The position numbers and the translations under genes are program-made. The notes under the pieces were generated by a model, which made no database searches, was not told the DNA's origin, and saw only the letters and a list, made by a program, of their open reading frames with translations. Positions 4,127 through 35,936 of a stretch of DNA of 64,000 bases are shown here, piece by piece (position 1 is the first letter of the stretch; every line of letters begins with the position of its first letter). Origin of the DNA: Thioalkalivibrio nitratireducens DSM 14787 (lineage in GTDB: Bacteria > Pseudomonadota > Gammaproteobacteria > Ectothiorhodospirales > Ectothiorhodospiraceae); the NCBI RefSeq assembly GCF_000321415.2, contig NC_019902.2:558001-622000 (forward strand), read 5' to 3'.

Positions 4127-4162
4127 TCACTCCTCCTGAGGGTCACCCCTGTGTTCGCTGTT

Positions 4163-4181
4163 GCGAATCGTAATGATTCGC
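4163..4181. promoter_or_regulatory. Fur-box-like palindrome in a divergent promoter
   Basis: GCGAATCGTAATGATTCGC is a perfect 7+5+7 palindrome whose centre resembles the Fur hexamers (AATGATT) and continues into CATTAG. It lies between the minus-strand start at 4126 and the plus-strand start at 4264, so it could control both HMA_2-like genes and hemP. A related sequence precedes hmuR at 21281. Confidence 0.7.
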
Positions 4182-4263
4182 ATTAGGATGTCAACGATCG
4201 ACTGCGGCGACACCGGAAATACCGGTCGTCCGTCGGGGATCCCCACGTCATCGGAGGCTCTGC

Positions 4264-4866: not shown

Positions 4867-6240
4867 ATGTGCGGCGGCAACGATCACGAACATTGCTCGG
4901 TTCCAGGGTTGCTGCTGCGCAACCCCTGGGACGAGGAGCCAGCGCCCGGCCAGGAATTGCCACAGGCAGCGGCTGAGGCTCCCCGGCCCAAGGCAGTACG
5001 GAGTGCTGTCTGGAAAAGGCGCAAGCTCTGGGAGCTGAAGCGACATCTGCATTGCCCGGTGATCGGCACCTGTCTCGACATCGACACCTGGCGCCGCCTT
5101 GCCCGGGCACGAAGCCTGGCTGTCGAACAGATGAGCGACTACGAAGTCCATGTCCACTTCGTCGGGGCATGTGCGCAGCGCAATGCTTCGTCGCTCGCCG
5201 CCCAGAAAGCCCTGGATCGGGCCCACGAGGGCCTGCTGCGGCGTTTCGCGCGGGCTCGATCGCGAGAACAGCTCGAGGCGCTCTGGGCACAGGCGCTCAG
5301 CGCTGGCGAGGTGCCCGGAGGGTTCTGGGCGCTGGTCAGTCACCCCCGCTGCGATGCGACTTTGGTGGACCGTGCCTACGAAGACGTGCACATGCTTTCC
5401 CACCAGGTCGGTGCGGGGCAGCGCGCGGACCTGAAAAAGCACCAGGAGGCACGGATCGAGATCCAGCGGCTTCGGGACGACGTCGACGACCTGCAACGCC
5501 GGAACCGCCAGGCGATCGACCATCGCGACCGGCGGATCACCGCGCTGGAGGCCGAACTCGCTGCGGTCATCAAACAGCATCGGGCGGCACAGGCCCGGGA
5601 AAGCGACGCGCGGGAGCGTCTCGAACGACTCGGAGGTCAGGGGCACCAGGAACGGATGACCGCCATTGCCGAGCGAGCCCGAACGGCCGAGCGACGCGCG
5701 AGCAGGCTTCGGCACGAGGTCGGGAGGTGGCAGGAGGCCTGCGAACGTGCCGACGCGCGGGCGCGGGCCTGGGAACAGGAATGCGAAGACCAGCGCGCAC
5801 AGCGGGAGGCGCTGGAGCGACAGTTGGCTCCGGGGGCTGCCCAATGCTCCGGCTGTACGGCTTCGAGCGAATCGGGCTGCCCGAACCTGTGCGGCCGCCG
5901 GATTCTCTGTGTAGGCGGGCGCAGTCACGTGATCGAGTATTACCGCGAGCTGGTTGCACGCTGCAATGGTGAGTTCGAGCACCATGACGGCGGAATCGAA
6001 GACAACCCCCAGCGCCTGAACGCGCTGCTGTCCTCAGCCGACGCGGTCATCTGCACCACCGACTGCGTCAGCCATGATGCCTACAACCGTTCCAAGAAGT
6101 TCTGCAAGCGCTCTGCGAAACCCTGTGTGCTGCTGCGCTCCTCCGGCGTGTCCACGTTCGCGCGGGCCCTCGAGCAGGTCGCGCTGCAGCACGCAGGTCA
6201 GGTGGCTTCCGCGCAAGTGAGCCTGCTGCCGAGCCGGTAA
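4867..6240 (+). CDS. DUF2325 coiled-coil protein
   Basis: A 457-residue protein. The N-terminal third begins with a Cys/His pair (MCGGNDHEHC). Residues about 170-320 are a long Arg/Glu/Gln-rich coiled coil. The last 100 residues are a DUF2325 domain, with ILCVGGRSHVIEYYRELV, DGGIEDNP, DAVICTTDCVSHDAYNRSKK and LLRSSGVSTFARAL as landmarks. DUF2325 proteins are often encoded in iron, hydrogenase or anaerobic-metabolism neighbourhoods, but no biochemical role is settled. It follows hemP by 15 bases, so the two are probably co-transcribed. Confidence 0.8.
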   Translation: MCGGNDHEHCSVPGLLLRNPWDEEPAPGQELPQAAAEAPRPKAVRSAVWKRRKLWELKRHLHCPVIGTCLDIDTWRRLARARSLAVEQMSDYEVHVHFVGACAQRNASSLAAQKALDRAHEGLLRRFARARSREQLEALWAQALSAGEVPGGFWALVSHPRCDATLVDRAYEDVHMLSHQVGAGQRADLKKHQEARIEIQRLRDDVDDLQRRNRQAIDHRDRRITALEAELAAVIKQHRAAQARESDARERLERLGGQGHQERMTAIAERARTAERRASRLRHEVGRWQEACERADARARAWEQECEDQRAQREALERQLAPGAAQCSGCTASSESGCPNLCGRRILCVGGRSHVIEYYRELVARCNGEFEHHDGGIEDNPQRLNALLSSADAVICTTDCVSHDAYNRSKKFCKRSAKPCVLLRSSGVSTFARALEQVALQHAGQVASAQVSLLPSR

Positions 6241-10576: not shown

Positions 10577-11583
10577 GGCTGGCCCGGACCCGGCATCCCG
10601 TAGAAGCCGTCATCGGGCAGACGCCCGCCGACCAGCGCCGGTGTATGGTCGAGCAGCAGCTGGAAAAAGAACTCGACCTCCTCGCGGGCCTGCGCGGCGG
10701 GAACCGCGTCCATGCGGCTTGCGGCAACCGCGTCGGCGACGGCCTCCGCGGTCAGCAGATCCATCGTCGCGGCGACCTCTTCGCCACAGGCGATCGGATG
10801 GTCGCGGCACCAGGTCAGCGACTGCTCGTATGCGCTGCGGATCCGCTCGGCCAGCGCGGGGTTCTCGAGCGCGGCGCCCATCACCGCGATGCCCGCCTGA
10901 GGGATGCGATCCGCGCGGTCGAAGACCTGTCCCCACTCCTGCTGGAGGTCGATGCTCCGGTGCAGGTCCGGCGCGATCAGCCGCACCGGGAAGGACTGCG
11001 TTCTGCGCAGCGCCATCGACACGGCGGGTTCGGCCAGCAGCGCGTGGTCGACGCGGCGCATGACCAGGAGCTGCATCGCGTCCATCGGGCTCGCCACGTA
11101 GCGGAGACGGAAATCCCGCTTTGGGTCCAGGCCCTGGTTTTCGGCCAGCACGCTGAACACGATATCCGGCATGTCGGCGCGAAACGGAATGGCGATCTCG
11201 CGGCCGCGCAGGTCGGCCAGAGTGCGTAGCTCGGCATCGCGCGACACCAGCCAGAGCACGCCCCACGTCGAAACATTCAGCATTTGCAACCGAGAACCTC
11301 GGTTGTACAGGTTGGCCGCGACGTTGGTCGGCATCGCCAGCACCTGCGCACGATCCCCCAGCACCATCACGCGCAACTGGTCCGGATCGCGCCAACCGAC
11401 GAACTCCACCTCGTCCGCGACATCGGCAAGCGCCCCCGACCGGACCATGTGGATCAGCGGAAACGAGACCGCCGCCGGCGGCCCGGCGAGAACCAGGCGA
11501 GGCAAGCGCTCGGCCTGTGCAGGGACAACCGCAAAACCAAATGCCAGGAACAGGATGGTCAACAGAGTCACGAGGTGCCGCAT
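10573..11583 (-). CDS. NMT1/SsuA-like periplasmic substrate-binding protein
   Basis: The start is set at the Met that begins a clear signal peptide (MRHLVTLLTILFLAFGFAVV, cleavage after AQA); an upstream in-frame start would overlap the TonB receptor. About 336 residues with the NMT1/SsuA-like layout (LVLAGPPAAVSFPLIHM at the first strand, LADLRGREIAIPF in the hinge region). It binds the importer's ligand in the periplasm. It begins 1 base after the stop of the TonB receptor, so an outer-membrane-to-cytoplasm route for one ligand is plausible. Confidence 0.8.
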   Translation of the reverse strand: MRHLVTLLTILFLAFGFAVVPAQAERLPRLVLAGPPAAVSFPLIHMVRSGALADVADEVEFVGWRDPDQLRVMVLGDRAQVLAMPTNVAANLYNRGSRLQMLNVSTWGVLWLVSRDAELRTLADLRGREIAIPFRADMPDIVFSVLAENQGLDPKRDFRLRYVASPMDAMQLLVMRRVDHALLAEPAVSMALRRTQSFPVRLIAPDLHRSIDLQQEWGQVFDRADRIPQAGIAVMGAALENPALAERIRSAYEQSLTWCRDHPIACGEEVAATMDLLTAEAVADAVAASRMDAVPAAQAREEVEFFFQLLLDHTPALVGGRLPDDGFYGMPGPGQP

Positions 11584-17800: not shown

Positions 17801-18985
17801 TCATTGCGTTGCCGGTACCGGCCGATAGCGAATCCGGGGGTGCCCGGAGACACCGGCGTCGCTGTAGTAGCCGGTGATTTGCAGCGCGTAGCGCGGCGCA
17901 GCGTCATCGCCACGGTCGGTATCGACCAGGTAGACTCGGTAGTTCGGCCAGAGCCGGTGTTGTCCCGCCAGGTTGTAGGCGTACCAGGGGTGTTCGCTGA
18001 AGACGCCGCTGGAGCTGTCCGGCACATACAGGCCGGCCAGCGGCGTGCCGCCCGGGTCCATCGTTGCGCTGGTATAGGTGGCCAGTTGCGCCCAGTCGAA
18101 CGGGCCGAACGCGGCGCCGCTGCCTTCGCCGCTTACACCCCCATTGCTGCGCAGGTAAAAGGATCTTCCGAGGAAGCCGAGCTTGAGGTCCCAGTCGGTA
18201 CCCGAGCAAGCGACGATCAGGTCGGCATCGAAGTCGAAGCACACCTCGCCGCCGCCTGGCGGTATCAACCCCTCGAACGCCGCCTGGCCCGTGAACTGGC
18301 CAACCCCCGCCGGCTGCAGGTCGAACTCGAAGCGGAAATGCTCGACACCCCGGCCCGAGCGCGTGTCGAACGTGAGTTCCGTCATGCGCATGCGGGCGTA
18401 GCTGTTGCCCTCGCCCGAGCGCAGCAGCCAGCCACGGTCCGGATTCGGGAGCATGGTCCCATCGGCCGGGTTGTAGAGGTACCAGCCGCCGTCGGTTGCG
18501 CTGGTGCCGCTCAGCACGGTGGTCACGCTGTCCCGGATCCAGTCGTCTGCCCCGGGTTCAGCGATCTCGGCCATCAGGACCGGCCGCTCACTGTCGGCGG
18601 TCGCATTGGTGAAGCGGCTGGTAATCGGAGTGTTGTTATCGTCGTAGAAGTCGTCCTGTGCTGCCACCAGTGCACCGGCCACGTCGCCCGGCCCCGAGGT
18701 ACCGCCATTCAGCATCACGTTGAAGCGGCGGAACGCGATGTGCCACTCGGTTGCAACCTCGGACTGCGCCGCGACCTCCACCGCCTGTCCCGTGTGCAGG
18801 TTCAGGTGCACGTATTCGGCCGAGCTGGTCGCGTCGATCTGCAAGGATCTGACGTCCGTCGGCGGTGGTGCGTCGCCTCCGTCGGATGAACCGGACGGTT
18901 CGCCGCTGGAGCCGCCACTACCGCAGGCGGTCGCGAACACGGCGGAAACGGTTGCAGCGAACAGGCGAAGGGATGCGCTAGACAT
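17801..18985 (-). CDS. hmuY: HmuY-family heme-binding lipoprotein
   Basis: 394 residues from the ATG at 18985 (AGGAG upstream). A lipoprotein signal ends in FATAC, followed by a Gly/Ser-rich linker. The body begins with SLQIDATSSAEYVHLNLHTG and WHIAFRRFNVMLNGGTSGPG, typical of HmuY (heme-binding lipoproteins that hand heme to HmuR). The beta-rich fold continues with a second half around FDWAQLATYTSATMDPGGTP. It is anchored in the outer membrane and lies 23 bases downstream of hmuR. Confidence 0.88.
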   Translation of the reverse strand: MSSASLRLFAATVSAVFATACGSGGSSGEPSGSSDGGDAPPPTDVRSLQIDATSSAEYVHLNLHTGQAVEVAAQSEVATEWHIAFRRFNVMLNGGTSGPGDVAGALVAAQDDFYDDNNTPITSRFTNATADSERPVLMAEIAEPGADDWIRDSVTTVLSGTSATDGGWYLYNPADGTMLPNPDRGWLLRSGEGNSYARMRMTELTFDTRSGRGVEHFRFEFDLQPAGVGQFTGQAAFEGLIPPGGGEVCFDFDADLIVACSGTDWDLKLGFLGRSFYLRSNGGVSGEGSGAAFGPFDWAQLATYTSATMDPGGTPLAGLYVPDSSSGVFSEHPWYAYNLAGQHRLWPNYRVYLVDTDRGDDAAPRYALQITGYYSDAGVSGHPRIRYRPVPATQ

Positions 18986-19008
18986 GGAATCACTCCTGTG
19001 GATCGGGG

Positions 19009-21045
19009 TCATTGGGAGCCGAAGGGGCCGTCGAGACGCAGGCCGAGGTAAACGTAACGGCCCGGTTTCGGGCTGAAGTCCGCGGCGTCGCCGGCCGCCG
19101 GAACCTGGTCGAACACGTTGTCCACGCCCGCGAGCCAGGTGACCGGCCCGTGGCGCCATGCACCGCGCAGATTCACGCGGGTCCAAGCCGGCGATTTGTC
19201 CGTGTTGGCACTGTCGATGAACTCGCTGGATTGGTACTCGGCGCCGGCGGATAGCTGCAGGCGTCCGCGTTGGTGAATCAGTTCGGTTTTGACCTGGTGC
19301 GCAGGGCGCAGGGGAAGCGTTCGGCCGGTATCCTGGTCTTCCGCCTGCAGCCAGGTGTATCCGAGGTCCCAGCGCAGGTCGCGGCTGATCTGCCAGGCAA
19401 GGCCGGTTTCAACGCCCCAGGTCCGGGCCCGAGCCAGGTTGCGGTAGTCGAAGACCTGCAGACCCTCCTGCTCGGTCAGATCGGTATTGAACTCGGTGGT
19501 GATCAGGTCGCGTATGTCGTTATGGAACAGGTTCACATCCCAGCGCGGGGCCCGGCTGTTCAGCGGCAGCCACTCGGCACCGATCTGAACACTCACCGAG
19601 CTTTCGGGCTGCAGGTCCGGGTTGCCGGCCACCCTGTAACCCAGACTGCTCTGGTCGAACTCGAAGTAGCGTTCCTTCAGGTTGGGTACGCGATAGCCAC
19701 GCCCCACCCCGGCACGCAGATTCAGGCGCCCGCCCCCTGAATCGACCTGCCGCTTGAGGTTCAGACTCGGTGCGAGGAAGCCCCCGAAATCACTGTCATG
19801 CTGATAGCGCAGTCCGGCCAGGATCTCGCTCTTCTCGCCGAAGAAGATGTTGTCCTGAGCAAACACCTCCTGGTTGCGGTGGCGCGCCCCGGGCTCGATT
19901 TCATCGCTGCCGACCACAACCCCGCCCACCCAGTTGTCCTTGGTCTGATCCAGGCGCTCGTCCCGGGCGAGAGCACCCAGGGTGAGCCAGTGGCGCCGGT
20001 TCCATTCGTGATTCCACTGGCCTTCGATACGCCGGGAAACGATCTCAGCGTCTCGGCGCGTGAGCGGGTCGCCGGCGACGGAACGTTCGGACGTCTGGTT
20101 CTCGAAGCGCGACCACGACGCCGTCATTCGCCAGTCACTCCGGTCATCGGTCGCCCGATTGAGGTCGAGCACCAGCCCGGGCTGGCGCACGGTCTCCTCC
20201 TTCACCCGGCGGCCTTCGGCTCCGCCGGGCAGGGACACGGACACGCGCTGTGTTTTGTCCTCCTGCATCCAGGTGGGACGCAGGCTGAACCGGCTGCGCG
20301 GCGCGAGGTTCCAGTCGAGCCGCGACGACAGGTTGAGGTGCTCGATGCCGTGCACGTCCTGGGCGAAGCGCTCCGGCTGCAGGGAAAAGCCGTCGTTGCG
20401 ACGCCAGTCGCCCGTGAACTCCGCGGAGACGTATTCGCCGCCGCGGCTCCAGCGGCCGAGCAGGTGGGCGCCGTGTGGTACGTCGCCGTCGCCGCGCCGA
20501 TCGTATGCACCGACCTCGGCCTGCAGCCGATAAGCCGTGGCTTCGGGGCGGCGGGTGATCACGTTGATCACACCACCCATCGCGGAAGACCCGTAGAGCG
20601 CTGAGGTGGCCCCACGCACGACCTCGATCCGCTCGACGTCGGCGACCATGATCTGGGTCAGGTCCACGGTGCTCCCTGTGGAAGCGATCGCGGGAATGCC
20701 GTCGATCAGGATCAGCACCCGGTCGCCGTCCAGCCCCTGCATCCAGATTTCCTGTCCCTGCTTGCCGTGGATGGTGCGCAGGTAGACCCCGGGCAACAGG
20801 CGCAGCGCATCGGCCAGATCGCGGGCCTGGCGCCTTTCCAGCGTGGCGCGGTCGATCACCTGAGTGCGGACCGGGACATCTTCGAGCAGGCGCTCGGTTC
20901 GCGTGCCCGTGATCACGATCTGAGGAAGAAGGGCGGGTTCGCCCGCGGACAGCGGGTGCTCGGCAGGATCGGCCTGTACGTTCGGCACAGCCGCACCGAC
21001 GCCGGCTAGCAGAATAGCGAGGGTCGAAAACTTGAACCGAGGCAT
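19009..21045 (-). CDS. hmuR: TonB-dependent heme receptor HmuR
   Basis: A 678-residue outer-membrane receptor. The signal peptide ends near NVQA; the TonB box region is LPQIVITGTRTERLLEDVPV. The plug has EIWMQGLDGDRVLILIDGIP and RIEVVRGATSALYGSSAMGG. The barrel includes GYRVPNLKERYFEF and GNPDLQPESS, the segment around the NPDL motif of HmuR-like receptors. It is the first gene of the long minus-strand run and lies downstream of a Fur-box-like palindrome. Confidence 0.92.
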   Translation of the reverse strand: MPRFKFSTLAILLAGVGAAVPNVQADPAEHPLSAGEPALLPQIVITGTRTERLLEDVPVRTQVIDRATLERRQARDLADALRLLPGVYLRTIHGKQGQEIWMQGLDGDRVLILIDGIPAIASTGSTVDLTQIMVADVERIEVVRGATSALYGSSAMGGVINVITRRPEATAYRLQAEVGAYDRRGDGDVPHGAHLLGRWSRGGEYVSAEFTGDWRRNDGFSLQPERFAQDVHGIEHLNLSSRLDWNLAPRSRFSLRPTWMQEDKTQRVSVSLPGGAEGRRVKEETVRQPGLVLDLNRATDDRSDWRMTASWSRFENQTSERSVAGDPLTRRDAEIVSRRIEGQWNHEWNRRHWLTLGALARDERLDQTKDNWVGGVVVGSDEIEPGARHRNQEVFAQDNIFFGEKSEILAGLRYQHDSDFGGFLAPSLNLKRQVDSGGGRLNLRAGVGRGYRVPNLKERYFEFDQSSLGYRVAGNPDLQPESSVSVQIGAEWLPLNSRAPRWDVNLFHNDIRDLITTEFNTDLTEQEGLQVFDYRNLARARTWGVETGLAWQISRDLRWDLGYTWLQAEDQDTGRTLPLRPAHQVKTELIHQRGRLQLSAGAEYQSSEFIDSANTDKSPAWTRVNLRGAWRHGPVTWLAGVDNVFDQVPAAGDAADFSPKPGRYVYLGLRLDGPFGSQ

Positions 21046-22983: not shown

Positions 22984-23573
22984 CGGCTCCTCCCGTCTGC
23001 AAAGCGCTGCGGGCATTGCGGATTCCCTCGGTGCGGGGCCGCAATCGGTCGCCTCGCGCATACGGGTATGGGACCGCGGGGCATCGTGCCCCGGAGGACG
23101 GGCGTGGCCAGAACGTCGTTGCAGCACATGGGCTCTCCTCGGGTTCTCTGAAAGGATCGGCTGGCGACGCGTCTACCATTCGGTATCAGGTTTCCGCTGG
23201 CTGGCTTGCGACCTGCGAGGTTGATTCGCAGAACCTACAGGTGAGAATGATTCCTATTACGGATCTGGTTGTCAAGTCGTGAACCGCCGTCGGGATTCTT
23301 CCATGCGGCGCGGCCCGTGCTGGGGGCCGAACGCGGCTTGCGGAGTCCGGCTGCCCTCTCCTATGCTTGCAGTGAAGCGCGCCGCCTGCGGGGCGCCCAG
23401 CCAGCCAGCCGAACAGAACTTCCGCGCTCCATTACTTCGGCAAGCCAGCCAGTCACCGCGATACCACAAGTTTGCGCGAGGTAGCTGGCCATGCGGCAAG
23501 ACCCCCGTCTCTTTTCTCGAGCCCCGGCACGCGCGCCGGTGGTTGACTACGTCCGGCGACGACGCACATCCGG
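22984..23573. other. Divergent intergenic region
   Basis: About 590 bases between the minus-strand HemS-like gene and the plus-strand ferrosome-like cluster. It contains a Fur-like site at 23241-23262 and no convincing gene; short ORFs are low-complexity. Promoters for both directions probably lie here. Confidence 0.5.
23241..23262. promoter_or_regulatory. Fur-box-like sequence in the divergent region
   Basis: GAGAATGATTCCTATTACGG resembles the Fur consensus half GATAATGAT followed by a degenerate second half. It sits about 260 bases from the minus-strand start and about 310 from the plus-strand cluster, so it could serve either. Confidence 0.5.
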
Positions 23574-23963
23574 ATGGGTGCGGTGAGTTCCGGTGATCTC
23601 GACATCCTGCTCGCGCTGCGTGGACATGTACGCATCGCGCATCATTTCCGTGGCCGCATCCGGCTGCGGATTGCGCCCACGCTGGCGCGCCGGCTGGGGC
23701 AGGTGGACCGCAGCCGGATCGAGCCGGCGCTGCGGGCGATCGAAGGGATCGGCGCGGTGCGGGTCAACCCCGCCGCAGGCTCCGTCGTCGTTGAATATTC
23801 CCCCGATCGGATCGCCCCCGACACCTGGGATCTGCTCCTGAACGGGGATCCGGAAGCAGCGCGGGCGCGGCTGCAGTCGCTGCTCGGTCCGGATCCCGCA
23901 TCGCTCGCCAGCAGCCTCCGGAACGCGAGGCCCCAACATTCATCTGACGAGGAGCACACATGA
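23574..23963 (+). CDS. HMA_2-like protein, first gene of the ferrosome-like cluster
   Basis: A 129-residue protein. Residues about 17-75 fit an HMA_2-type ferredoxin-like domain (VRIAHHFRGRIRLRIAPTL, then IEGIGAVRVNPAAGSVVVEY) lacking CxxC. The rest is an acidic helix and a short tail. It overlaps the next gene by 4 bases (ATGA). Proteins with this domain (FezC-like) accompany P1B-6 ATPases in known fez clusters; equivalence is inferred. No strong ribosome site is visible before the ATG. Confidence 0.65.
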   Translation: MGAVSSGDLDILLALRGHVRIAHHFRGRIRLRIAPTLARRLGQVDRSRIEPALRAIEGIGAVRVNPAAGSVVVEYSPDRIAPDTWDLLLNGDPEAARARLQSLLGPDPASLASSLRNARPQHSSDEEHT

Positions 23964-24574
23964 ATCACCCCGAACACGGTTGGCAGAACCCAGGTGCGGC
24001 CCAGGCGGGCAACACCGGGGGCAACGCGGCGGCGGCGCCGGAGGGAACGGGTACAGCCCCGGGCGGCGGCCCGGAGCCTGGCGTTGCCCACGGTTTTCAC
24101 GGTGCCTGGCCGTACCCCTACGGGTCGGGCTGGCCGGGGGCATCGCCCTGGCCAGGGTATCCGCCGCCGGGTTTCGCGATGGCCCCGCCTCCGTACGGAT
24201 ACGGCCCGTACGGCGCTGCTGCATACCCCTGGGCTGCGGCGGGAGGCGGTCAGGCGTGGCCCGGGCAGGCCAGCGCGGCACCGGGCCCCGACACGCAGGG
24301 GTTCGGGGCGGCGATGGGAAACATCGCCGACCAGGCCGGGCTCGGGATGCTCAAGGATCTTTTCAACTTCGGTGACGGAGATTTCTGGAAGGGCGCGATG
24401 GTCGGTGCCGCCGTCGTGCTGCTGCTGACCAACGAGAACCTGCGCGAGACCCTGGCCGGCGGCGCGGCAAAGGCCACCGCCGCGGTCAAGTCCGGTCTCG
24501 GTGGCGAAGGCTCCGCTGATCGTGATGACGCCGCCGAAGACACCGAAACAGACCCGGAGGAGAATGCCCGATGA
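23960..24574 (+). CDS. Gly/Pro/Tyr/Trp-rich protein with GxxVG-type membrane segment
   Basis: A 204-residue protein of unrecognised family. Residues 1-115 are low-complexity, rich in Gly, Pro, Ala, Tyr and Trp (for example GAWPYPYGSGWPG). Residues 144-159 form a short hydrophobic segment KGAMVGAAVVLLLTNE shared with the protein at 24926. The tail is very acidic. The architecture suggests a membrane-tethered scaffold, perhaps coating or shaping an iron compartment. It overlaps both neighbours (ATGA). Confidence 0.6.
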   Translation: MNHPEHGWQNPGAAQAGNTGGNAAAAPEGTGTAPGGGPEPGVAHGFHGAWPYPYGSGWPGASPWPGYPPPGFAMAPPPYGYGPYGAAAYPWAAAGGGQAWPGQASAAPGPDTQGFGAAMGNIADQAGLGMLKDLFNFGDGDFWKGAMVGAAVVLLLTNENLRETLAGGAAKATAAVKSGLGGEGSADRDDAAEDTETDPEENAR

Positions 24575-24933
24575 CCACCCACCACTACCCGATGCAGGTG
24601 CTGTCGCCCTACCCCCAGCATCCCGCGGCATTGCAGCCGCAGCAGGAACTGAACCGGCTGCTCGATGCGGCACGGACCGGCATGATGGTCGGCGGCGCTG
24701 GCGCCGCTGCTCTCCACCTGCACCGCATGCGTGACCAGGGCATCGGCTGGCAGGAAGCGCTTGGCAGCAGCGTGAAGACGAGCCTGCAGGCGGGCGTTGC
24801 GACGGCGGCCGCATCGGCCGTCGGGCGCATGTTCGCCGGGAATCCCGTGCTCGCGGCGGCCGCCACCCTGGCCACCGGCACCGCGGTGATGTATGCGCTC
24901 ACCGCCCGGCAACAGGAGTCGAGCCATGAATGA
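24571..24933 (+). CDS. Small Ala/Gly-rich membrane protein
   Basis: A 120-residue protein with an N-terminal Pro/Gln stretch and two or three short Ala/Gly-rich hydrophobic segments (MMVGGAGAAALHL, AGVATAAASAVG, VLAAAATLATGTAVMYAL). His-containing sites (HLHRMRDQ) lie between them. No family recognised. Glycine-zipper-like packing suggests membrane insertion or oligomerisation. It overlaps the previous gene by 4 bases and the next by 8. Confidence 0.55.
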   Translation: MTTHHYPMQVLSPYPQHPAALQPQQELNRLLDAARTGMMVGGAGAAALHLHRMRDQGIGWQEALGSSVKTSLQAGVATAAASAVGRMFAGNPVLAAAATLATGTAVMYALTARQQESSHE

Positions 24934-25315
24934 GCACTTCCGCCAGCCGGGCGCGTACTGGCAGGTACCGATGGGCGTGCAGCCGGGCTGGCCGCCGACG
25001 GGGGCGGGGCAACCGTTCCCGGGGGCGGCCCAGTTCCAGCAGCCGCCGATGTTCTATGCCCCGGTACCGCCAACGCCTGCGCATAATTCACCACCACCCA
25101 CTTCGGCGCTGCCCGGCAACCCACGCTTCATCAAGGGCGCGCTGGTCGGTGCCGTGGCCGCCTACCTGCTGACCAACGAGACGGTGCAGCAGAATGCGAT
25201 CCGGACGGCCGTCAGGGCCTGGTCCATGCTGCAGGGCGGAATCGAGGAGATGAAGGAGCGCTTCCGCGACGCCGAGGCCGAGCTGCACGCCTCCGAGGCA
25301 GAGCGAGAGGACTGA
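24926..25315 (+). CDS. Pro/Gln-rich protein sharing the KGAxVGA...LLTNE motif
   Basis: A 129-residue protein starting at the ATG that overlaps the previous stop by 8 bases. Residues 1-65 are Pro, Gly and Gln rich; residues 70-85 read KGALVGAVAAYLLTNE, nearly matching the 204-residue protein. The C-terminus is an amphipathic, charged helix (EEMKERFRDAEAELHASEAE). It is probably a paralogous membrane anchor with a coiled-coil end. Family unknown. Confidence 0.6.
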   Translation: MNEHFRQPGAYWQVPMGVQPGWPPTGAGQPFPGAAQFQQPPMFYAPVPPTPAHNSPPPTSALPGNPRFIKGALVGAVAAYLLTNETVQQNAIRTAVRAWSMLQGGIEEMKERFRDAEAELHASEAERED

Positions 25316-25318
25316 GGC

Positions 25319-25840
25319 GTGCAGCCCGGGGCACCGACGACGTTCACGCCCGACCAAGCCCTGTCGTTTGCCCTCGATGACGAGTACCGCGCCCGGGCGA
25401 GCTACCGGGCGGTGCTCGATGCCTTCGGACCGGTCACGCCGTTCGTCGAAATCGCCGCGGCCGAGCAGCGGCATATCGACGCGCTGCTGCCGCTGTTCCC
25501 GCGCTACGGCGTGGCGCCGCCGGCTGACCGTTGGGCCGGCCGTGTCGCAGCACCGCCCACGCTGGCGGCGGCCTGCGCCGCCGGCGTGGCCGGTGAGATC
25601 GGCAACTACAGCCTGTACGACCACCTGCTGGCACAGGTCGGCGAGCCGGACGTGCGCGCGGTGTTCGCCAGTCTGCGCAACGCTTCGGCCTACCGTCACC
25701 TGCCGGCTTTCCAGCGCTGTGCGGGTCGGGCCGGGCTTCCTGTTCCGGGGCCGGCGGCGACAGGCGCGGCCTCAGCGCTGCTGCTCGGCCTGGCGGCCGG
25801 CTTCGGAGCGGTCTGGCTGCTGCGCCGGGGTTCGGCATGA
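25319..25840 (+). CDS. Ferritin-like diiron-type protein with C-terminal anchor
   Basis: A 173-residue protein with a GTG start 3 bases after the previous stop. Repeated Glu/His positions of a four-helix ferritin-like bundle are visible: DDEYRARASY, EIAAAEQRHIDALLPLF, GEIGNYSLYDHLL and SAYRHLPAF, as in DUF2202-type proteins. A hydrophobic helix (ASALLLGLAAGFGAVWLL) ends the protein, so the domain would sit on a membrane. Iron oxidation or storage inside a compartment is a natural inference. It overlaps the ATPase gene by 4 bases. Confidence 0.65.
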   Translation: MQPGAPTTFTPDQALSFALDDEYRARASYRAVLDAFGPVTPFVEIAAAEQRHIDALLPLFPRYGVAPPADRWAGRVAAPPTLAAACAAGVAGEIGNYSLYDHLLAQVGEPDVRAVFASLRNASAYRHLPAFQRCAGRAGLPVPGPAATGAASALLLGLAAGFGAVWLLRRGSA

Positions 25841-27993
25841 TCGCCCGGCCTACGCGCGGGGATCCGCGGCTGGTCCACCGGACACCGACGCGTCTGCGCT
25901 TCCAGCTCGCCCGCCTCGGTGATCCGCGCATCGACTTCGCCTGGCTCGAGGCCTGGCTCGAGTCGGTACCGGGGGTGGAGGCGGTACGGATCAACCGGCA
26001 TGCGCGCTGCGTGGTGTTCGATTACGACGGCGCGGCGGGCACCCGCCGCGCCGTCCGGGATCGGCTGCGAGCGCTGCCAAGCCTGCGCATTCCGGCCGGC
26101 GAGGCCGAGCCGACCGAGCCGGCGGAACTGGCGCCGATGATCGCGAGCCTCGTCGTGCTCGTGCTGCTGCCGTTCCTGTCGCCACCGCTGCGCCGGCTGG
26201 TCACCCTCGTCAACATCAGCAAGACCCTGCTGCGCGGGGTCGACACATTCATCCATCGCGGGCTGAAGATCGAGGTTCTGGACGCGGTTGCGATCGGCCT
26301 CTCGGCTGGGCGCGGCGAGCATTTCACCGCCAACGCCACCGACTTTCTGATGGAACTCGGCGGTTACCTCGAAAAACGCACCGAGCGCCAGTCCGACCGG
26401 ATGCTGCGCCGTCTGCTGCGCCCCGAGCCGGGGCTGGCCTGGGTCGAGCGCGGCGGGGTGCTGGTGCAGATCCCCGACGACCAGATCCGTACCGGGGAAC
26501 GCGTCGAGGTTGGCCCCGGCGAGAAGATCGGGGTCGACGGGCTGGTGCTGGACGGGACCGCGCTGGTCAACCAGTCCAGCATCACCGGCGAGCCCGTACC
26601 CGTGCGCAAGGAGTTGATGGACCGTGTGATTGCGGGCACCGTGATCGAGGATGGGCGGCTGCGGATCGAGGCGCGGCACGTCGGCGACGAGACGACCACC
26701 GCGCGCATCGCGCGCTTCATCGACGCCTCGCTGGACAAGCCCTCCGACACCCAGCGCATGGCCGAGCGCCTGGCCGACCGACGGGTCTACATCACCCTCG
26801 GCACGGGCGCGCTGGTCTATGGGCTGACCGGCGACGGGCGGCGCCTGTCGTCGGTGTTCCTGGTCGATTACTCCTGCGCCCTCAAGCTCGGCACGCCGCT
26901 GGCCTTCCGTTCGGGTATTTACCATGCGGCTCGCTCCGGCATCCTGCTCAAGGGGGGCGAGGCGATCGAACACCTCGCCGAGATCGACACCGTCGTGTTC
27001 GACAAGACGGGGACCCTGACCCGCAGCGACCTCGAGGTCAGCGACGTGGTCGTGCTGAACACCGAGCGGTGGTCGCGGACCCGGCTGCTCGCGGTCACCG
27101 CGTCGATCGAGGAACACGCCAGCCATCCGATCGCCGAGGCGATCGTGCGCAAGGCCCGCGAGGAGAAGCTCAACCACATCGACCACGGCGAGGTCGACTA
27201 CCTCGTCGCCCACGGGATGACCTGCCCGGTGAACGGCGACCGGCTCCTGATCGGCAGCCGGCACTTTCTCGAGGAACACCATGGTGTACGCTTCGACGGT
27301 TTCGAAGCGGCGATCGCCGCGCTCCAGGAGGAAGGCAAGACCTTGCTGTACGTCGGTACGGAGCAGGAGGCCATCGGCCTGATCGCCCTGCGCGACACGC
27401 TGCGCGAGGACGCCGCGGCCGTGCTCGCCGGGCTGCGCCGGTTGGGCGTGAAGCACCTGGTGATGCTCACCGGCGATCACCGCCGCCGGGCGGATGCGCT
27501 GGCCCGGGAGCTCGGGATCGACGAAGTCTTCGCGGAACAGGTCCCCGAGGACAAGGCCCGGGTGCTGGAACAGCTGCGCGCCGAGGGCCGCCGGGTCGCG
27601 TTCGTCGGCGACGGGGTGAACGATGGTCCGGCGCTGGCCGCTGCCGACGTGGGCATCGCGATGTCCCGCGGCACCGAGCTCGCACGCGCGACCGCGGACG
27701 TGGTGCTGCTCGAGGACCGGCTGGACATGTTGCTCGACGCCGTCGATATCGCCCAGCGCACCATGGGCATGGTCGCGACGAACTACCGCGCCGCGATCGG
27801 CATCAACACCGGGGTGATGATCGGCGCGGCTTTGGGCTGGCTGTCCCCGGTGGCAACGGCCGTGCTGCACAATGGAACGACCGTGGGATTGCTGGTCAGG
27901 GCCTTGCGCGGGCTGGATGCACGGGAGCATCCGGTGCCGGCACTGTCCAAACCAGCGAGCGGTGCACGCGCAGTGCCCTCACAACGCAGTTGA
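25837..27993 (+). CDS. fezB: P1B-6-type metal ATPase, FezB-like
   Basis: A 718-residue P-type ATPase. The N-terminal 85 residues form an HMA_2-like domain without CxxC (VHRTPTRLRFQLARL, VPGVEAVRINRHARCVVFDY). Then follow ITGEPVP (actuator), the membrane motif DYSCALKLGTP (Ser346-Cys347-Ala348), DKTGTLT with the phosphorylated Asp389, the nucleotide-domain HP at 430-431 and GDGVND at 591-596. The SCA motif marks the P1B-6 subgroup, which builds ferrosomes in Desulfovibrio magneticus, Rhodopseudomonas, Shewanella and Clostridioides. It would pump iron into a membrane compartment. The family link is strong; ferrosome function here is inferred. Confidence 0.85.
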   Translation: MIARPTRGDPRLVHRTPTRLRFQLARLGDPRIDFAWLEAWLESVPGVEAVRINRHARCVVFDYDGAAGTRRAVRDRLRALPSLRIPAGEAEPTEPAELAPMIASLVVLVLLPFLSPPLRRLVTLVNISKTLLRGVDTFIHRGLKIEVLDAVAIGLSAGRGEHFTANATDFLMELGGYLEKRTERQSDRMLRRLLRPEPGLAWVERGGVLVQIPDDQIRTGERVEVGPGEKIGVDGLVLDGTALVNQSSITGEPVPVRKELMDRVIAGTVIEDGRLRIEARHVGDETTTARIARFIDASLDKPSDTQRMAERLADRRVYITLGTGALVYGLTGDGRRLSSVFLVDYSCALKLGTPLAFRSGIYHAARSGILLKGGEAIEHLAEIDTVVFDKTGTLTRSDLEVSDVVVLNTERWSRTRLLAVTASIEEHASHPIAEAIVRKAREEKLNHIDHGEVDYLVAHGMTCPVNGDRLLIGSRHFLEEHHGVRFDGFEAAIAALQEEGKTLLYVGTEQEAIGLIALRDTLREDAAAVLAGLRRLGVKHLVMLTGDHRRRADALARELGIDEVFAEQVPEDKARVLEQLRAEGRRVAFVGDGVNDGPALAAADVGIAMSRGTELARATADVVLLEDRLDMLLDAVDIAQRTMGMVATNYRAAIGINTGVMIGAALGWLSPVATAVLHNGTTVGLLVRALRGLDAREHPVPALSKPASGARAVPSQRS

Positions 27994-28008
27994 ACGGAGG
28001 ACAACCTC

Positions 28009-28362
28009 ATGGCATATCATCTGATTCCTTTCGTGGCCGGCGCAGTCGTCGGCGGTCTGGCGGTCTACCTGTTTCGTGACGAAAAGGCTCGCGACGACCT
28101 GCGCCAGTCGGCAACCGGCATCTCGCGCAAAGTGCAAAAGACTGCAGGTGAGGTGTCCGGCAAGGTTTCCAAAAGCCTCTCGCAGGTTCGCGAGGCGATG
28201 CCGGGTGGCGGCCAGGCTGCGGGCCCCGCTGCTGCCGAAGCGCCGGCTGCAGCCACATCGCCGGAACCCCGGAAACCCGCGCGACGCACCGCCAGCCGCA
28301 AACCGGCGACCCGCAAGGCGCGCGAGGCACCTGCGGAACCTCCGAAGCCCGACGAAACCTGA
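28009..28362 (+). CDS. YtxH-like membrane-anchored, Lys/Ala/Pro-rich protein
   Basis: A 117-residue protein with an N-terminal helix PFVAGAVVGGLAVYLFRDE, a motif parallel to the GxVG...LLTNE anchors upstream. An amphipathic segment follows and then a histone H1-like tail (KPARRTASRKPATRKA). It starts 15 bases after the ATPase with a GGAGG site and closes the cluster. It may tether the compartment to DNA or anionic polymers; this is speculation. Confidence 0.6.
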   Translation: MAYHLIPFVAGAVVGGLAVYLFRDEKARDDLRQSATGISRKVQKTAGEVSGKVSKSLSQVREAMPGGGQAAGPAAAEAPAAATSPEPRKPARRTASRKPATRKAREAPAEPPKPDET

Positions 28363-28602
28363 AACGCGGCGCCCATCACCCGTAGGCCGGACGAGCGCAG
28401 CGTCCTCCGCCCCACCGCACAGGGCGGAGCCCCCCTGCGTCGGGGTGTCCCGGGCGCCAGCCGGCGGATGACGGCCTTCGGCCTTTTCCGCCCACACATC
28501 TGAAACGCGGCGCACATTCGCAATTGATTCGCGGCTGGTCCGGGCGCACAGTGAAGGCAGGGTCCCTTGCGGTTCCCGGGCGGATCCGTTCGGAGTGTGC
28601 AG
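28363..28602. repeat. Palindromic intergenic repeat before gltB
   Basis: GAAACGCGGCGC occurs twice (about 28362 and 28502) around a GC-rich palindromic region containing GAGCGCAGCGTCCTCCGCCC and GGCCTTCGGCC. A relative (GAGCGCAGCGTCATCCGCCC on the minus strand) lies near 22330-22370. These look like REP-type elements; the first may also end transcription of the ferrosome-like cluster. Confidence 0.5.
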
Positions 28603-31600
28603 ATGACAGTGTTCCAGGGGTTGCGTCGCCCGGCGCTGACCGGGGCGCTGGGCCATGCGCGGTGCCCGCGCTCGATCGGTGTCTCGAGCTGCGGCGTGGG
28701 TGTGGTCGCCGATCTCGATGGCCACCGCAGCCATCGGCTGGTGCGGGACGGTATCGAATGCCTCGAAAACCTCGACCATCGGGGTGCGCGCGGGGCCGAG
28801 GAGAACACCGGCGACGGGGCCGGCATGCTGTTGCAGAAGCCGCATATGTTCTTCCGGGAAGAGTTTCCCGGCCTCGGGGATCCCGACAGCTACGGCGTCG
28901 GGCAGGTGTTCATGCCCCGGGACGTGGACCAGCGGGCCGCGCTCCGTTCGCTGATCGCCGCCCGCTGCCGGGAGCGCGGCTTCGACCTGGTCGCATGGCG
29001 TGCGGTGCCGACGGACAACCGCGGGCTGGGGAAGACAGCGCTCGAAAGCGAACCCGTCTCGCAGCAGTTCTTCGTCCGGCCCGGGGAGACGCTGCAACCC
29101 CCGGACCTGGACGTTGCGCTGTACGTGCTGCGGCGCGAGATCGAGAACGAGGCCCTGTACCGGGGTCTGGTCGGGTACGGTGAGGAGGTCTTCTATATCT
29201 GCTCGCTGTCCCGGACCACGATCGTATACAAGGGTCTGCTGACCTGTGCACAGCTGAGCGCCTATTACCCCGACCTGTCCGATTCGCGCGTCACCTCCGC
29301 AATGGTCCTGGTGCACGCGCGTTTTTCCACCAACACCCTCGGGGCCTGGGATCTCGCGCACCCCTATCGTTACCTCGTGCACAACGGAGAGATCAACACG
29401 CTGCGCGGCAACCAGAACTGGATGCGGGCGCGCGAGGCGACGCTCGCATCGCCGCGCTTCGGCGCCGACATTGGGAAAATCAGGCCGCTTACGGGGGAGG
29501 GACTCAGCGACAGCGCACAACTGGATAACGTGCTGGAACTGCTCGCGGTTTCCGGACGCAGCCTGCCGCACGCGCTGCGCATGCTGATCCCGGAGGCCTG
29601 GGAACAACAGGATCAGTACATGGACCCGAGCCGGCGCGCCTTCTATGCGTATCACAGCGCGCTGATGGAGCCCTGGGACGGGCCGGCGCTGGTGGTCGCC
29701 ACCGACGGGCAGCGGCTCGCCGCCGTGCTGGACCGGAACGGGCTGCGGCCCTGCCGGTACAGCATCACCCGTGATCGACGGCTGGTCATGGCCAGCGAGA
29801 CCGGAGTGCTGGATGTTCCCGCGCGCGATGTTCTTGCGAGGGGACGGCTGAAACCCGGTGCGCTGTTCGTGCTCGATCCCGCCCGCGGTGGAATCGTTCC
29901 CGAGGAGGAGGTGTTTGCCGAACTTGCAGGTCGCCCCTACGAGGCCTGGCTCGAGACCGGGCGTGTGATGCTGGCCGACCGGGTCGACCCCTCCGATGAG
30001 CCCCTGCCGTCTGGTTCGCTGGAACGCCCGCTGCACGAATACCAGCGCGCGTTCGGGCACACGATGGAATCACTGCGCGTCCTCGTACAGTCCATGGCGT
30101 CCACCGGCACGGATCCGATCGGCGCCATGGGCAGCGATACCCCACCGGCCGTGCTGTCGGCGCGGCCACGCCCGCTGAGCCACTATTTCCTGCAGCAGTT
30201 CGCGCAGGTCTCCAATCCGCCGCTGGACTACATCCGCGAGGCGCTGGTGACCTCGCTCGGCGACGCGATCGGTCCGCGCGGGAACCTGCTGGCGGAGACT
30301 GCCGGCCACTGCCGGCAGCTCTACCTCGAGTCGCCCGTGCTCAGCAGCCCGCAGCTTCGCGCGATCGAGCGGCTCGACCGCGATGGCCTGCACAGCCGCC
30401 GGATCGACATCGCCTACGCGAAGGGCTACGGCATGGTCGCGGCGATCCGGGCGATGCGCCACAAGGCGGTGCGGGCGCTCGGTGACGGCTACGGGATCCT
30501 GGTGCTGACCGATCGTTCGGTCGGACCTGGCCGCGTCGCAATCCCGAGCCTGCTGGCGGTGTCGGCACTGCATCACCATCTGATCCGCAAGGGCCTGAGA
30601 ATCCGTACGGCGATCGTGGTGGACGCGGGCGAGCCGCACACGGTGCACGACTTCTGCACGCTGATCGGTTACGGGGCGGATGCGGTGCATCCGTGGCTGG
30701 CCTACCGGGGCATCGCCGACCTGGGGGGGGGCACGCGGCTACCTCGAGACCGAGATCGGCCAGGCGGTCGAGCGCTATCGCAGGGCTGTCGAGGGTGGCC
30801 TCCGCAAGGTGATGTCGAAGATGGGGATCTCGACGCTGCAGGGCTACAAGGGCGCGCAGATCTTCGAGTCGATGGGGCTGGATCACGAGTTCGTCGACGA
30901 GTTCTTCACCGGCACGACGGCCCATGTTCCCGGGGTCGGCATCGAGGAACTGGAACGGGAGACACTCGCGGCTCACGGGATCGCGTTCGGCACCCCGGTG
31001 ATCGGCAACCTGCCGCTGGATCCCGGCGGGCATCTCTACTGGCGCCGCGACGGCGAACGCCACCACTGGAACCCGTATACCATCGGCAAGCTGCAGCAGG
31101 CGGCACGTGGCAACGATCCCGAGGCCTACCGCGACTTTGCCCGCCATGCCAACCAGCAGGGGGGAGGGCTGCTCAACCTCCGGGGTCTGCTGGAACTCGT
31201 GGCCGACGACGCCTGCGCGCTCCCGCTCGACGAGGTCGAGCCGGTCGAGTCGATCATGAAACGCTTCTCCACCGGCTCGATGTCTTTCGGTGCGCTGAGT
31301 CAGGAAGTTCACGAGACGCTTGCGATCGCGATGAACCGGATCGGCGGAAAATCGGGCACTGGGGAGGGGGGCGAGCAGGTGGAGCGCTTTGGTACCGAAC
31401 GCGAATGCTCGATGAAGCAGGTCGCGAGCGGCCGCTTCGGGGTCACGGCCCACTACCTGGCCCGGGCCCGCCAGATCGAGATCAAGATGGCCCAGGGCTC
31501 CAAGCCCGGCGAGGGGGGCGAGCTGCCCGGCGGCAAAGTCGACGAGGGCATCGCACGGGTCCGTTTTACGGTGCCCGGCGTCGGCCTGATTTCGCCGCCC

Positions 31601-33148
31601 CCGCATCACGACATCTATTCGATCGAGGATTTGCAGCAGCTGATCCACGACCTGAAGTGCGCGAATCCGGCTGCGGAAATCCACGTGAAGCTGGTCTCGA
31701 AGGCCGACGTCGGCACCATCGCCGCCGGGGTGGCCAAGGCGCGCGCCGACGCCGTGCTGATCAGCGGTGATTCCGGGGGTACCGGCGCCTCGATGAAGAC
31801 CTCGATCAAGCACGCCGGGGCACCCTGGGAGTTCGGGGTGGCGGAAACCCAGCGGGTGCTGCGTGCCAACCGGCTGCGTTCGCGCATCACCGTGCGCGCG
31901 GATGGCGGGCTGCTGACCGGTCGCGACGTGGTGATCGCGGCGCTGCTGGGCGCAGAGGAATACGGCTTTGGCACCGCGCCGCTGGTGGCGCTCGGCTGCA
32001 TCATGCTGCGCAAGTGCCACTGCAACACCTGCTCGGTCGGGATCGCAACGCAGGATCCGCGCCTGCGCGCGCGGTTCCGGGGGCGCGCGGAGCACGTCGT
32101 CAACTACCTGCGCTTCGTCGCCGACGAGGTGCGCGAGAACCTGGCGGCCCTCGGTTTCCGCGGCATCGACGAGATGATCGGCCGGGTCGACCGGCTGCGG
32201 GCGCAGCGGGTCGTGCACCCCAAGGGCATCCAGCCCGATGTCTCGGAACTGCTGCGGCACGTTTCGTCCGACGATGCACCGCGCAGAACCCGCGCCCAGA
32301 ACCACGGCCTGGACCAGAAGATCGATCACCAGGTGATCGAACAGGCGCGGCCGGCATTGGAAAACGGCAGTCCGGTGAAGGTTCATATCCAGCTGAGCAA
32401 CCGTGACCGGACTTTCGGCACGCTGCTGAGCTACGAGGTCACCCGCCGCCACGGCGCCCAGGGCCTGCCGGCCGGGACGATCGACGTTCGCTGTACCGGA
32501 ACGGCGGGACAGAGTTTCGGGGCATTCCTGTGCCGTGGGATTGCCTTGCATCTCGTGGGCGACCTGAACGACTACGCCGGCAAGGGGCTCTCGGGTGGCG
32601 TGATCAGCGTGCGTACGCCGGCGGATGCCGGGTATCCCGCCGCCGAGAACACGATCGTGGGCAATGTCGCGCTGTTCGGCGCGACCGGGGGCGAGGCTTA
32701 TTTCAACGGGCGCGGCGCCGAGCGCTTCTGCGTGCGCAACTCCGGTGCACTGAGCGTCGTCGAGGGGGTGGGCGACCATGGCTGCGAATACATGACCGGC
32801 GGGGTGGCCGTGATCCTCGGGCCGATCGGGCGGAACTTCGGGGCCGGCATGAGCGGCGGCGAGGCCTATGTCTTCGACGGGGAACGGCTTGCCGAACGGC
32901 ATCTGAACCCGGACGGCCGGCGGATCGAACCGGTGCGTGACGCACGCGACCGCGAACTCCTGCGGCGGCTGCTGGAGAATCATTTCAGCTACACTCGCAG
33001 CCGCCTGGCGGCCCGGATCCTCGAAGACTGGGAACGGTCGGTCGAGATCTTCGCCAAGGTGGTACCCGAAGCCTATGCGGACGCTGTGGCCCGGCACCTC
33101 GCGACTGGGCGGGATATCCGCGCGAGTCTCCCACCACGCGTTGCCTGA
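28603..33148 (+). CDS. gltB: Glutamate synthase large subunit, apparent frameshift
   Basis: About 1,515 residues if one G is removed from the G8 tract at 30723-30730. The N-terminal glutamine amidotransferase begins after a propeptide at the catalytic Cys (SSCGVGVVADLDG). The central domain and FMN/Fe-S synthase domain follow (SFGALSQEVHETLAIAMNRI, KPGEGGELPGGKVD, CIMLRKCHCNTCSVGIATQ with Fe-S Cys). The C-terminal beta-helix reads GATGGEAYFNGRGAERF. The first frame ends its homology at YRGIADLGG and the next frame resumes at RGYLETEIGQ. It converts glutamine and 2-oxoglutarate to glutamate. The start at 28603 is preferred over a TTG at 28567. Confidence 0.9.
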
Positions 33149-35401: not shown

Positions 35402-35421
35402 CATCACCACGGGCCTCCGGC

Positions 35422-35791
35422 CCTCGCAATGACCATGCAGATGCAACCGTCACTGCGAGGAGCCCACAGGGCGACGCGGCAGTCCAACCGCCGTCTGGAT
35501 TGCCACGGGCCTTTGCCACGGCCTCCGGCCTCGCAATGACAGGCCCTCGCAATGACCATGCAGATGCAACCGTCACTGCGAGGAGCCCACAGGGCGACGC
35601 GGCAGTCCAACCGCCGTCTGGATTGCCACGGGCCTTTGCCACGGCCTCCGGCCTCGCAATGACAGGCCCTCGCAATGACCATGCAGATGCAACCGTCACT
35701 GCCGAGGAGCCCACAGGGCGACGCGGCAGTCCAACCGCCGCCTGGATCGCCACGGGCCTTTGCCACGGCCTCCGGCCTGGCAATGACAGGC
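35422..35791. repeat. Tandem repeat, three units of 123-124 bases
   Basis: Units start at 35422, 35545 and 35668 with CCTCGCAATGACCATGCAG and are almost identical; the third has one extra base. Each unit contains the dispersed motifs CACTGCGAGGAGCCC and TGGATTGCCACGG, so it is an amplified copy of the CATTGCGAG-type repeat rather than a gene. It leaves several frames open because 123 is a multiple of three. Confidence 0.85.
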
Positions 35792-35936
35792 TCTCGCGAT
35801 GACGGTGTCACCCATCCCGTCACTGCGAGCCCCGAAGGGGCGCGGCAGTCCATACAGCGCCTGGATCGCCACGCGCCTTCGCCGCTCGCGATGACGGCTG
35901 GGGATGGCCCCCACGACGCCGCCACCCCACCCACCA

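Follow-up and report, generated by a model that had tools for sequence, protein, structure and literature searches.

A probable fez-type (ferrosome) operon with a MamC relative and a ferritin-like protein in Thioalkalivibrio nitratireducens

In the genome of T. nitratireducens (4.0 Mb, a single contig), seven ORFs on the + strand surround a P1B-type ATPase, which raises the question of what kind of metal-handling system they encode and whether the accessory proteins form an unusual set. The original prediction, made from the sequence of the 64-kb stretch analysed here (positions 558001–622000 of the contig; the window), had described a ferrosome-like (fez-type) cluster with an unusual accessory set. 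According to the comparisons below, the cluster is probably a fez-type operon of a widespread proteobacterial layout, to which a ferritin-like gene has been added at the level of a clade.

Gene content, layout and the ATPase

All seven ORFs were found on the + strand between positions 23574 and 28362, with junctions, in order, of -4, -4, -8, +3, -4 and +15 bases, in agreement with the predicted coupling by overlaps of 4–8 bases or short gaps. The first ORF (23574–23963, +; 129 aa) encodes the expected HMA_2 protein, which is without CxxC, matches PF19991 (E 3e-7, 30.9 bits against a cut-off of 30) and has an orthologue in locus L021. It is followed by a GPY-rich small protein (23960–24574, +; 204 aa) with the C-terminal helix FWKGAMVGAA..LLLTNE, a MamC-related small protein (24571–24933, +; 120 aa; NCBIfam MamC, below the curated cut-off) and a tail protein (24926–25315, +; 129 aa), in which a KGALVGAVAAYLLTNE helix precedes EEMKERFRDAEAELH. 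The GPY-rich and tail proteins were recognised from alignments of fez-locus relatives, and neither had a Pfam family above cut-off; the best matches of the tail protein, both below cut-off, were SARAF (E 0.011) and YtxH (E 0.72). The fifth ORF (25319–25840, +; 173 aa) encodes a DUF2202 (PF09968) ferritin-like four-helix protein with a glycine-rich hydrophobic C-terminal tail, and the sixth (25837–27993, +; 718 aa) a FezB-type P1B ATPase, assigned by TIGR01525, tree and motif. The last ORF (28009–28362, +; 117 aa) encodes a protein with a Lys/Arg/Ala/Pro-rich tail, whose predicted likeness to YtxH was retained as a weak match (PF12732, E 2.7e-4, 21.7 bits against a cut-off of 37.5); relatives occur in L021, L024 and L027. 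Scans of the window for Rfam families (gathering scores) and tRNAs gave no match.

The predicted coordinates covered these seven genes and missed a pair of HMA_2 genes at 3704–4644. The second HMA_2 protein of the window (3704–4126, -; 140 aa) matched PF19991 just under the cut-off of 30 (E 1.4e-6, 28.8 bits), and the third (4264–4644, +; 126 aa) matched at E 2.9e-7 and 31 bits. The pair is 73% and 72% identical, respectively, to HMA_2 genes of L021, and since the latter adjoin the cluster there, the locus is split by about 19 kb in the window genome.

The ATPase matched TIGR01525 among the NCBI models (E 8.5e-151), and its membrane motif is DYSCALKLGTP, confirming the predicted SCA motif. The presence of SCA in the metal-binding membrane helix is characteristic of the P1B-6 subgroup. 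The HMA_2-like N-terminus, also predicted, was found at residues 12–89 by an HMA_2 model built from small proteins of fez loci (E 6.6e-9), while the Pfam HMA_2 model alone gave E 0.11 (12.9 bits against a cut-off of 30). Each of the 13 ATPases tested had such an N-terminus, that of Arcobacter matching weakly (E 0.016). CxxC was rare, being found in the first 110 residues of 2/90 ATPases and in 4/152 small HMA_2 ORFs.

The phylogeny of the ATPase against other P1B subgroups, proposed with the prediction as a check, was computed from 118 sequences, of which 28 were outgroup pumps with CPC, SPC, CPH or CPD motifs. The 90 fez-type rows came from the window, 12 other loci and 77 of 80 named loci, with L022 and L098 being one and the same locus; L073, L101 and L107 were left out for want of an ORF of 600 aa, and the pump loci L014 and L146 because they gave no usable ORF. 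All 90 rows formed one clade (support 0.865) on a long stem (0.95), without any of the 28 other pumps, and Shewanella-labelled loci with an identical layout were among them. SCA was present in 85 of the 90, a count that is partly circular as 77 rows came from a scan with [VA]DYSCALK; the remaining motifs were ACG (2), SCG (2) and ACP (1). The window ATPase grouped with those of L021, L095, L097, L105, L112 and L114 with a support of 1.0. At E 1e-150, the ATPase was detected in 2/30 genomes of the genus, several of which are incomplete, in 9/47 of the order and in 8/398 of a phylum sample that includes the window genome. The distribution of the fez-type ATPase is patchy.

Gene order was compared in the 80 named loci, which are the nearest among the matches listed to one Vibrio/Shewanella-type query and do not represent the family evenly. 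They include eight Shewanella-labelled records, many from Vibrio and Photobacterium, and also Chromatiales. ORFs were labelled with models, each seeded with 4–10 proteins from previously examined loci (DUF2202 with two); those for the accessory proteins were then iterated twice on ORFs of the seeding loci. Because the models for GPY, tail and YtxH proteins overlap, their labels interchange. Upstream counts are lower bounds, since in 9/80 loci fewer than 3 kb separate the ATPase start from the edge of the locus. Within 4 kb upstream of the ATPase, the loci listed contained a MamC-like gene in at least 77/80 cases, a tail protein in at least 71, a GPY protein in at least 67 and HMA_2 in at least 60. 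Divergent HMA_2 within 5 kb was found in at least 49/80 of the loci listed, and a YtxH-like match within 2.5 kb past the ATPase, on either strand, in 7/80. A six-gene layout, consisting of HMA_2 (divergent), HMA_2, GPY, MamC-like, tail and ATPase genes, is present in Shewanella, Vibrio, Photobacterium, Kluyvera and others.

Six loci from another genus of the window's family (L158–L163) all have the MamC-like gene and no DUF2202, and in a further locus of that genus (L164) the ATPase alone was seen. Four loci from a single class (L038–L041) yielded no MamC-like gene, and L042 is a broken copy near a contig end with ATPase pieces only. The class of L038–L042 is probably Magnetococcia, as 11/48 of its genomes searched carry true MamC.

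The recurrence of an identical gene set and order in many genomes argues that the set did not arise by chance. All or some of the HMA_2, GPY-rich, zipper and tail proteins are found again across the 80 loci, which answers the synteny search proposed with the prediction and supports, together with motif and ATPase clade, its assignment to the fez (ferrosome) type. The description of the small proteins as an unusual set is ruled out, as the HMA_2, GPY, zipper and tail proteins belong to the common layout and the YtxH-like protein recurs too; what survives of the unusual accessory set is essentially one real accessory, the ferritin-like DUF2202 gene.

By motif, the FezB-type assignment is presumably shared with the fez operons of D. 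magneticus and C. difficile (FezA, FezB, FezC). A six-gene fez operon of Shewanella putrefaciens was reportedly presented in the 2022 ferrosome paper. For R. palustris CGA009, the formation of ferrosomes from six fez genes (RPA2333-2338) is described in PMC12016538. The window cluster has in common with these two operons an SCA-type P1B ATPase accompanied by small accessory proteins. It differs from the six-gene layout, which is known here from the Shewanella, Vibrio and Photobacterium loci and not from the published operons, by a DUF2202 gene between the tail and ATPase genes, a YtxH-like gene past the ATPase, and an HMA_2 pair split off to 3.7–4.6 kb. FezC is described as a DUF4405-like cytochrome (PMC11334425). 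A Pfam search for DUF4405 gave no match among the seven proteins of the window. To our knowledge, FezC is not expected of the six-gene fez type. The tie to proven ferrosomes rests on motif, layout and genus, the ATPase having been compared with those of fez-type loci and with other P1B pumps.

The DUF2202 ferritin-like gene

The fifth gene matched PF09968 with 25.0 bits against a gathering cut-off of 22 and ends in a glycine-rich hydrophobic stretch, consistent with the predicted ferritin-like protein with a membrane tail. An AF2 model built from six sequences is a four-helix bundle (pLDDT 86.6), for which the best Foldseek matches were MJ0754 (3q4n, E 9.7e-5; 3q4r, 1.4e-4) and Rv2844 (2ib0, 7.9e-4), followed at E 5e-3 to 3e-2 by Dps-like proteins, ferritins, bacterioferritins, nigerythrin and manganese catalase. 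A comparison with PDB sequences gave nothing below E 0.3. The four-helix ferritin-like fold is shared with MJ0754 and with DUF2202 proteins; MJ0754 is itself probably a DUF2202 member, since the family also matches in the M. jannaschii control genome. The comparison with MJ0754 concerns the fold, and the window protein differs from it in the glycine-rich hydrophobic tail and in its place in an operon with FezB. Residues Glu22, Glu49, His52, Glu93 and His127 are invariant in seven fez-linked copies and in the DUF2202 protein of L147, with which gene 5 thus shares the Glu, ExxH, Glu, His set. The classical six-ligand ferritin site is incomplete, as Ala, Gln or Tyr stands three residues ahead of the last His and the sixth di-iron ligand is therefore absent.

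DUF2202 genes were found in seven fez loci, five within the operon and two (L092, L113) nearby but outside it. In the window, L095, L097 and L105 the gene lies between the tail and ATPase genes, and all four loci have a YtxH-like gene past the ATPase; the latter three are Chromatiales MAGs that fall into one ATPase clade with the window. The fifth in-operon copy, on the Arcobacter plasmid L027, follows HMA_2 and belongs to a separate ATPase lineage; a second Arcobacter plasmid with a 99.6%-identical DUF2202 gene was not counted as independent. Other members of the window's ATPase clade (L021, L112, L114) have no DUF2202 in the operon, and in L021, the closest relative (ATPase 81% identical), the tail and ATPase genes are just 3 bases apart. 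Among 40 relatives, Pfam DUF2202 was detected in the window genome and G045 only, and not in the genome of L021 (G014), in a scan from which divergent copies could escape, the window's own gene being found at just E 3.9e-4. Ferritin-family genes are present at three other places in the window genome. As far as the sequences go, the DUF2202 gene is a real, clade-level accessory of the fez operon, and its restriction to few loci and its absence from the operon of the nearest relative indicate that it is not needed for core function.

Each of the five copies within the operon terminates in a hydrophobic, glycine-rich stretch, whose maximal 19-residue hydropathy past residue 130 is 1.98 in the window, 1.07 in L095, 1.21 in L097, 1.24 in L105 and 1.75 in L027; values of about 1.1–1.2, as in three of the five, are borderline and also occur in L147 (1.2), outside the group. 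The two copies outside the operon have no hydrophobic stretch (-0.24 in L092 and 0.18 in L113). No signal peptide was seen by eye in the DUF2202 protein, which starts directly with the folded domain. The positive residues past its tail suggest a cytosolic C-terminus and a luminal ferritin domain. A luminal domain would fit oxidation of iron after import, while a cytosolic ferroxidase would oppose the pump, in which case a protective role would be more likely.

That the DUF2202 protein is a protective enzyme (a peroxide scavenger of the rubrerythrin or catalase kind) or an iron-release factor, and not a mineral-making ferroxidase, is a serious contender, judged here to fall somewhat short of an even chance. 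It would accord with the weaker Foldseek matches (E about 1e-2), in which nigerythrin and manganese catalase appear beside ferritins, bacterioferritins and Dps, with the conservation of five of the six classical di-iron ligands and not all, and with the presence of the gene in the operon in 3/80 of the named loci listed (L092 and L113 having it nearby), the nearest relative lacking it there. The protein does not resemble a free soluble enzyme, however: the five in-operon copies are tailed, the two outside copies are tail-less, and the hydrophobic tail fits work at the membrane.

Iron-related surroundings and the putative role of the operon

The prediction had placed the cluster beside heme and Fe(II) uptake genes, which holds for the heme genes, found upstream at 11.6–21.0 kb, and less so for FeoB (489–3047), which lies about 20 kb away. 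The heme-uptake set comprises HemS, HmuY, FecCD, two TonB receptors, an ABC protein and a periplasmic binding protein; the HemS-like ORF has one weak Pfam match (E 0.014). A possible FeoB-associated small protein accompanies FeoB (22 bits against a cut-off of 27).

A possible Fur box, GAGAATGATTCCTATTACG (23243–23261, +), matches 13/19 positions of the Fur consensus, a score that none of 300 mononucleotide shuffles of 23128–23573 reached. The operon begins 313 bases beyond the site, and the start of the divergent HemS-like ORF, which precedes it by 116 bases, is nearer; the site may serve either. In the L021 stretch tested, the best Fur-like site matched 9/19. Among the intergenic regions of divergent HMA_2 genes, 21/48 had a Fur-like site of at least 14/19 and 27/48 did not; in 14/48 the shuffle fraction was 0.01 or less (100 shuffles each), and four loci, of which three are Shewanella, had a 16/19 site. 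According to PMC12574912, the ferrosomes of C. difficile require FezA and FezB, and Fur represses both.

These surroundings bear on whether the cluster could be a plasma-membrane efflux or detoxification system for Fe(II) or another divalent metal, with no organelle. P1B ATPases are typically exporters and the NCBI models matched here are generic heavy-metal pumps, but the locus encodes four or five additional small proteins, whose layout is repeated in different classes, and the iron-acquisition neighbours (heme uptake, FeoB) together with the Fur-like site point to iron limitation rather than excess. Efflux is therefore considered unlikely. The most likely role of the cluster, a fez-type operon by the comparisons above, is that of building membrane-wrapped iron stores (ferrosomes).

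We infer the substrate, the compartment, the regulation and the role of each small protein as follows. Under iron limitation the operon would be derepressed (Fur), and the SCA-type P1B ATPase would pump cytosolic Fe(II) into membrane compartments. The HMA_2 domains, being without CxxC, may be docking or sorting modules and not soft-metal chaperones. Construction of the compartment, control of its size and contact with the mineral would fall to small glycine-zipper membrane proteins, namely the GPY-rich, MamC-related and tail proteins. Anchored through its tail at the compartment membrane, the DUF2202 protein would oxidise Fe(II) or remove peroxide, so that the imported iron is deposited. The oxidation of iron by DUF2202 and the shaping of mineral by the MamC relative are thus both putative.

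The MamC relative and its meaning

The prediction had listed three small low-complexity or glycine-zipper membrane proteins; these do recur, and the homology of the 120-aa zipper protein to MamC had gone unrecognised. MamC, a small membrane protein, is reported to influence the size and shape of crystals (PMC12746419). The third gene product matched the NCBIfam MamC model at E 6.6e-6 and 26.3 bits, far under the cut-off of 100 bits, and is accordingly regarded as a relative and not as MamC. Since a search of 369 class genomes with this protein as the single query matched the window only, alignments and models were used for the family. Of 91 MamC-like ORFs in all, 38 were submitted to NCBIfam, and 37 of these matched MamC at E 0.01 or less (best 9.3e-12); in a smaller trial, five of seven matched at E up to 1. 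In the opposite direction, a model made from seven fez-locus proteins matched nine true MamC proteins (E 5e-7 to 6e-13), drawn from 11 loci of which L124 and L133 gave no matching ORF. None of eight reversed MamC-like sequences matched NCBIfam MamC, reversed MamC candidates reached 0.51 at best with the iterated fez model, and none of the iterated models for tail, GPY and YtxH proteins matched true MamC. A comparison of the two profiles with hhalign gave 99.9% over 118 columns, which was not counted as evidence of significance because unrelated control profiles also scored 99.3–99.5% (over 12–21 columns).

The core domains of the fez proteins and MamC (Mms13) can be aligned without gaps over about 80 residues. 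The fez relative differs from MamC in that it occurs with an ATPase and outside any magnetosome cluster, and does not conserve the invariant acids. D61 and E65 (L125 numbering) are invariant in all nine MamC examined, while the D61 position is D/E in 12/38 and the E65 position in 15/38 fez proteins, and the window protein has neither. A mineral-binding site conserved from MamC is therefore ruled out. The structure model has three helices at middling confidence (pLDDT 74.5, pTM 0.42) and showed nothing below E 0.7 against viral structures, and the alignment gave nothing at E up to 1 against PDB sequences.

In a tree of MamC and MamC-like proteins, MamC formed one clade (0.992) on a long branch, which midpoint rooting sets next to a part of the fez proteins, a placement that is weakly supported (0.784); no direction of descent is drawn from this tree. 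A mere shared composition of small Gly/Ala-rich membrane proteins, suggested by the shortness and composition of the proteins, the high hhalign values of unrelated controls and the lack of conservation of the invariant acids in the fez set, is very improbable, given that 37/38 members and 0/8 reversed sequences match MamC and that the seven-protein model finds nine true MamC where the reversed, tail, GPY and YtxH controls fail. By these profile matches, the 120-aa zipper protein is homologous to MamC, yet a relative and not MamC itself.

PMC9160268 treats ferrosomes and magnetosomes as organelles distinct from each other. If MamC homologues regularly belong to ferrosome-type operons, this would tie both organelles together, and the origin of magnetosome mineral control would become testable in ordinary non-magnetic bacteria. 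No MamC–ferrosome link was found among the titles and abstracts listed, which do not extend to the founding ferrosome papers, where it may be reported; the tailed DUF2202 variant was likewise not found in this set of titles and abstracts. The kind of operon is already known; the variant with a tailed DUF2202 protein and the link to MamC may be new, and priority is not claimed for either.

The presence of a tailed ferritin-like protein within the operon prompts the question of the site and manner in which iron is oxidised once a P1B pump has delivered it, for which the operon with DUF2202 (window genome) and that without it (the relative whose ATPase was compared above) provide a natural comparison. 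It is proposed, tentatively and with more doubt than confidence, that ferrosomes and magnetosomes share an ancestral MamC-like mineral-contact protein, and that the clade of the window pairs it with a membrane-held ferritin-like ferroxidase in a line that pumps, oxidises and templates. The MamC relative and the tailed ferritin-like protein hint at how ferrosomes may turn pumped iron into stored mineral; if the proposal is true, this would be a complete mineral-making line inside a bacterial organelle.

Variation in the ATPase and MamC-like genes of fez loci

The FezB-type ATPase, the P1B ATPase of ferrosome-type (fez) operons, is intact in other loci, but in Vibrio sonorensis (L073, 7644–9700) its coding sequence is split between frames of 333 aa and 358 aa. 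In four loci of one class (L038–L041), the ATPases carry ACG or SCG where the metal-binding membrane-helix motif SCA is usual. Model labelling of the locus ORFs found no MamC-like gene in the fez clusters of these four loci. True MamC, the magnetosome protein itself, is present in 11 of the 48 genomes searched from their class, which was therefore taken to be Magnetococcia. Several Chromatiales (L096, L111, L115, L118 and L119) have two MamC-like genes per fez operon.

Genes and repeats flanking the operon

Upstream, an HmuY-like protein (17801–19186, minus strand; PF14064, 67.2 bits) is encoded next to the HemS and TonB receptor genes. Downstream, the glutamate synthase large-subunit gene (28567–33148, plus strand) is apparently split between two overlapping frames, 28567–31770 (the frame that was scanned) and 30680–33148, the break falling at about 30.7 kb. 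It may be a pseudogene, or the break may be a sequencing error.

A repeat search detected a tandem repeat of about 3.8 copies of a 123-base unit at 35419–35883. Numerous short stretches scattered over the 35–64 kb region resemble a single site (about 11190–11293) in L021, the closest relative.

DUF2325 genes near fez clusters

The product of the gene at 4867–6240 (plus strand) carries a DUF2325 domain at its C-terminal end. DUF2325 genes also lie near the fez clusters of L021, L027 (an Arcobacter plasmid), L041, L093, L106 and L115, giving 7 of the 99 sources scanned, the window counted, of which three are seeds of the search model itself. The DUF2325 protein may be a recurrent partner or regulator of fez clusters.
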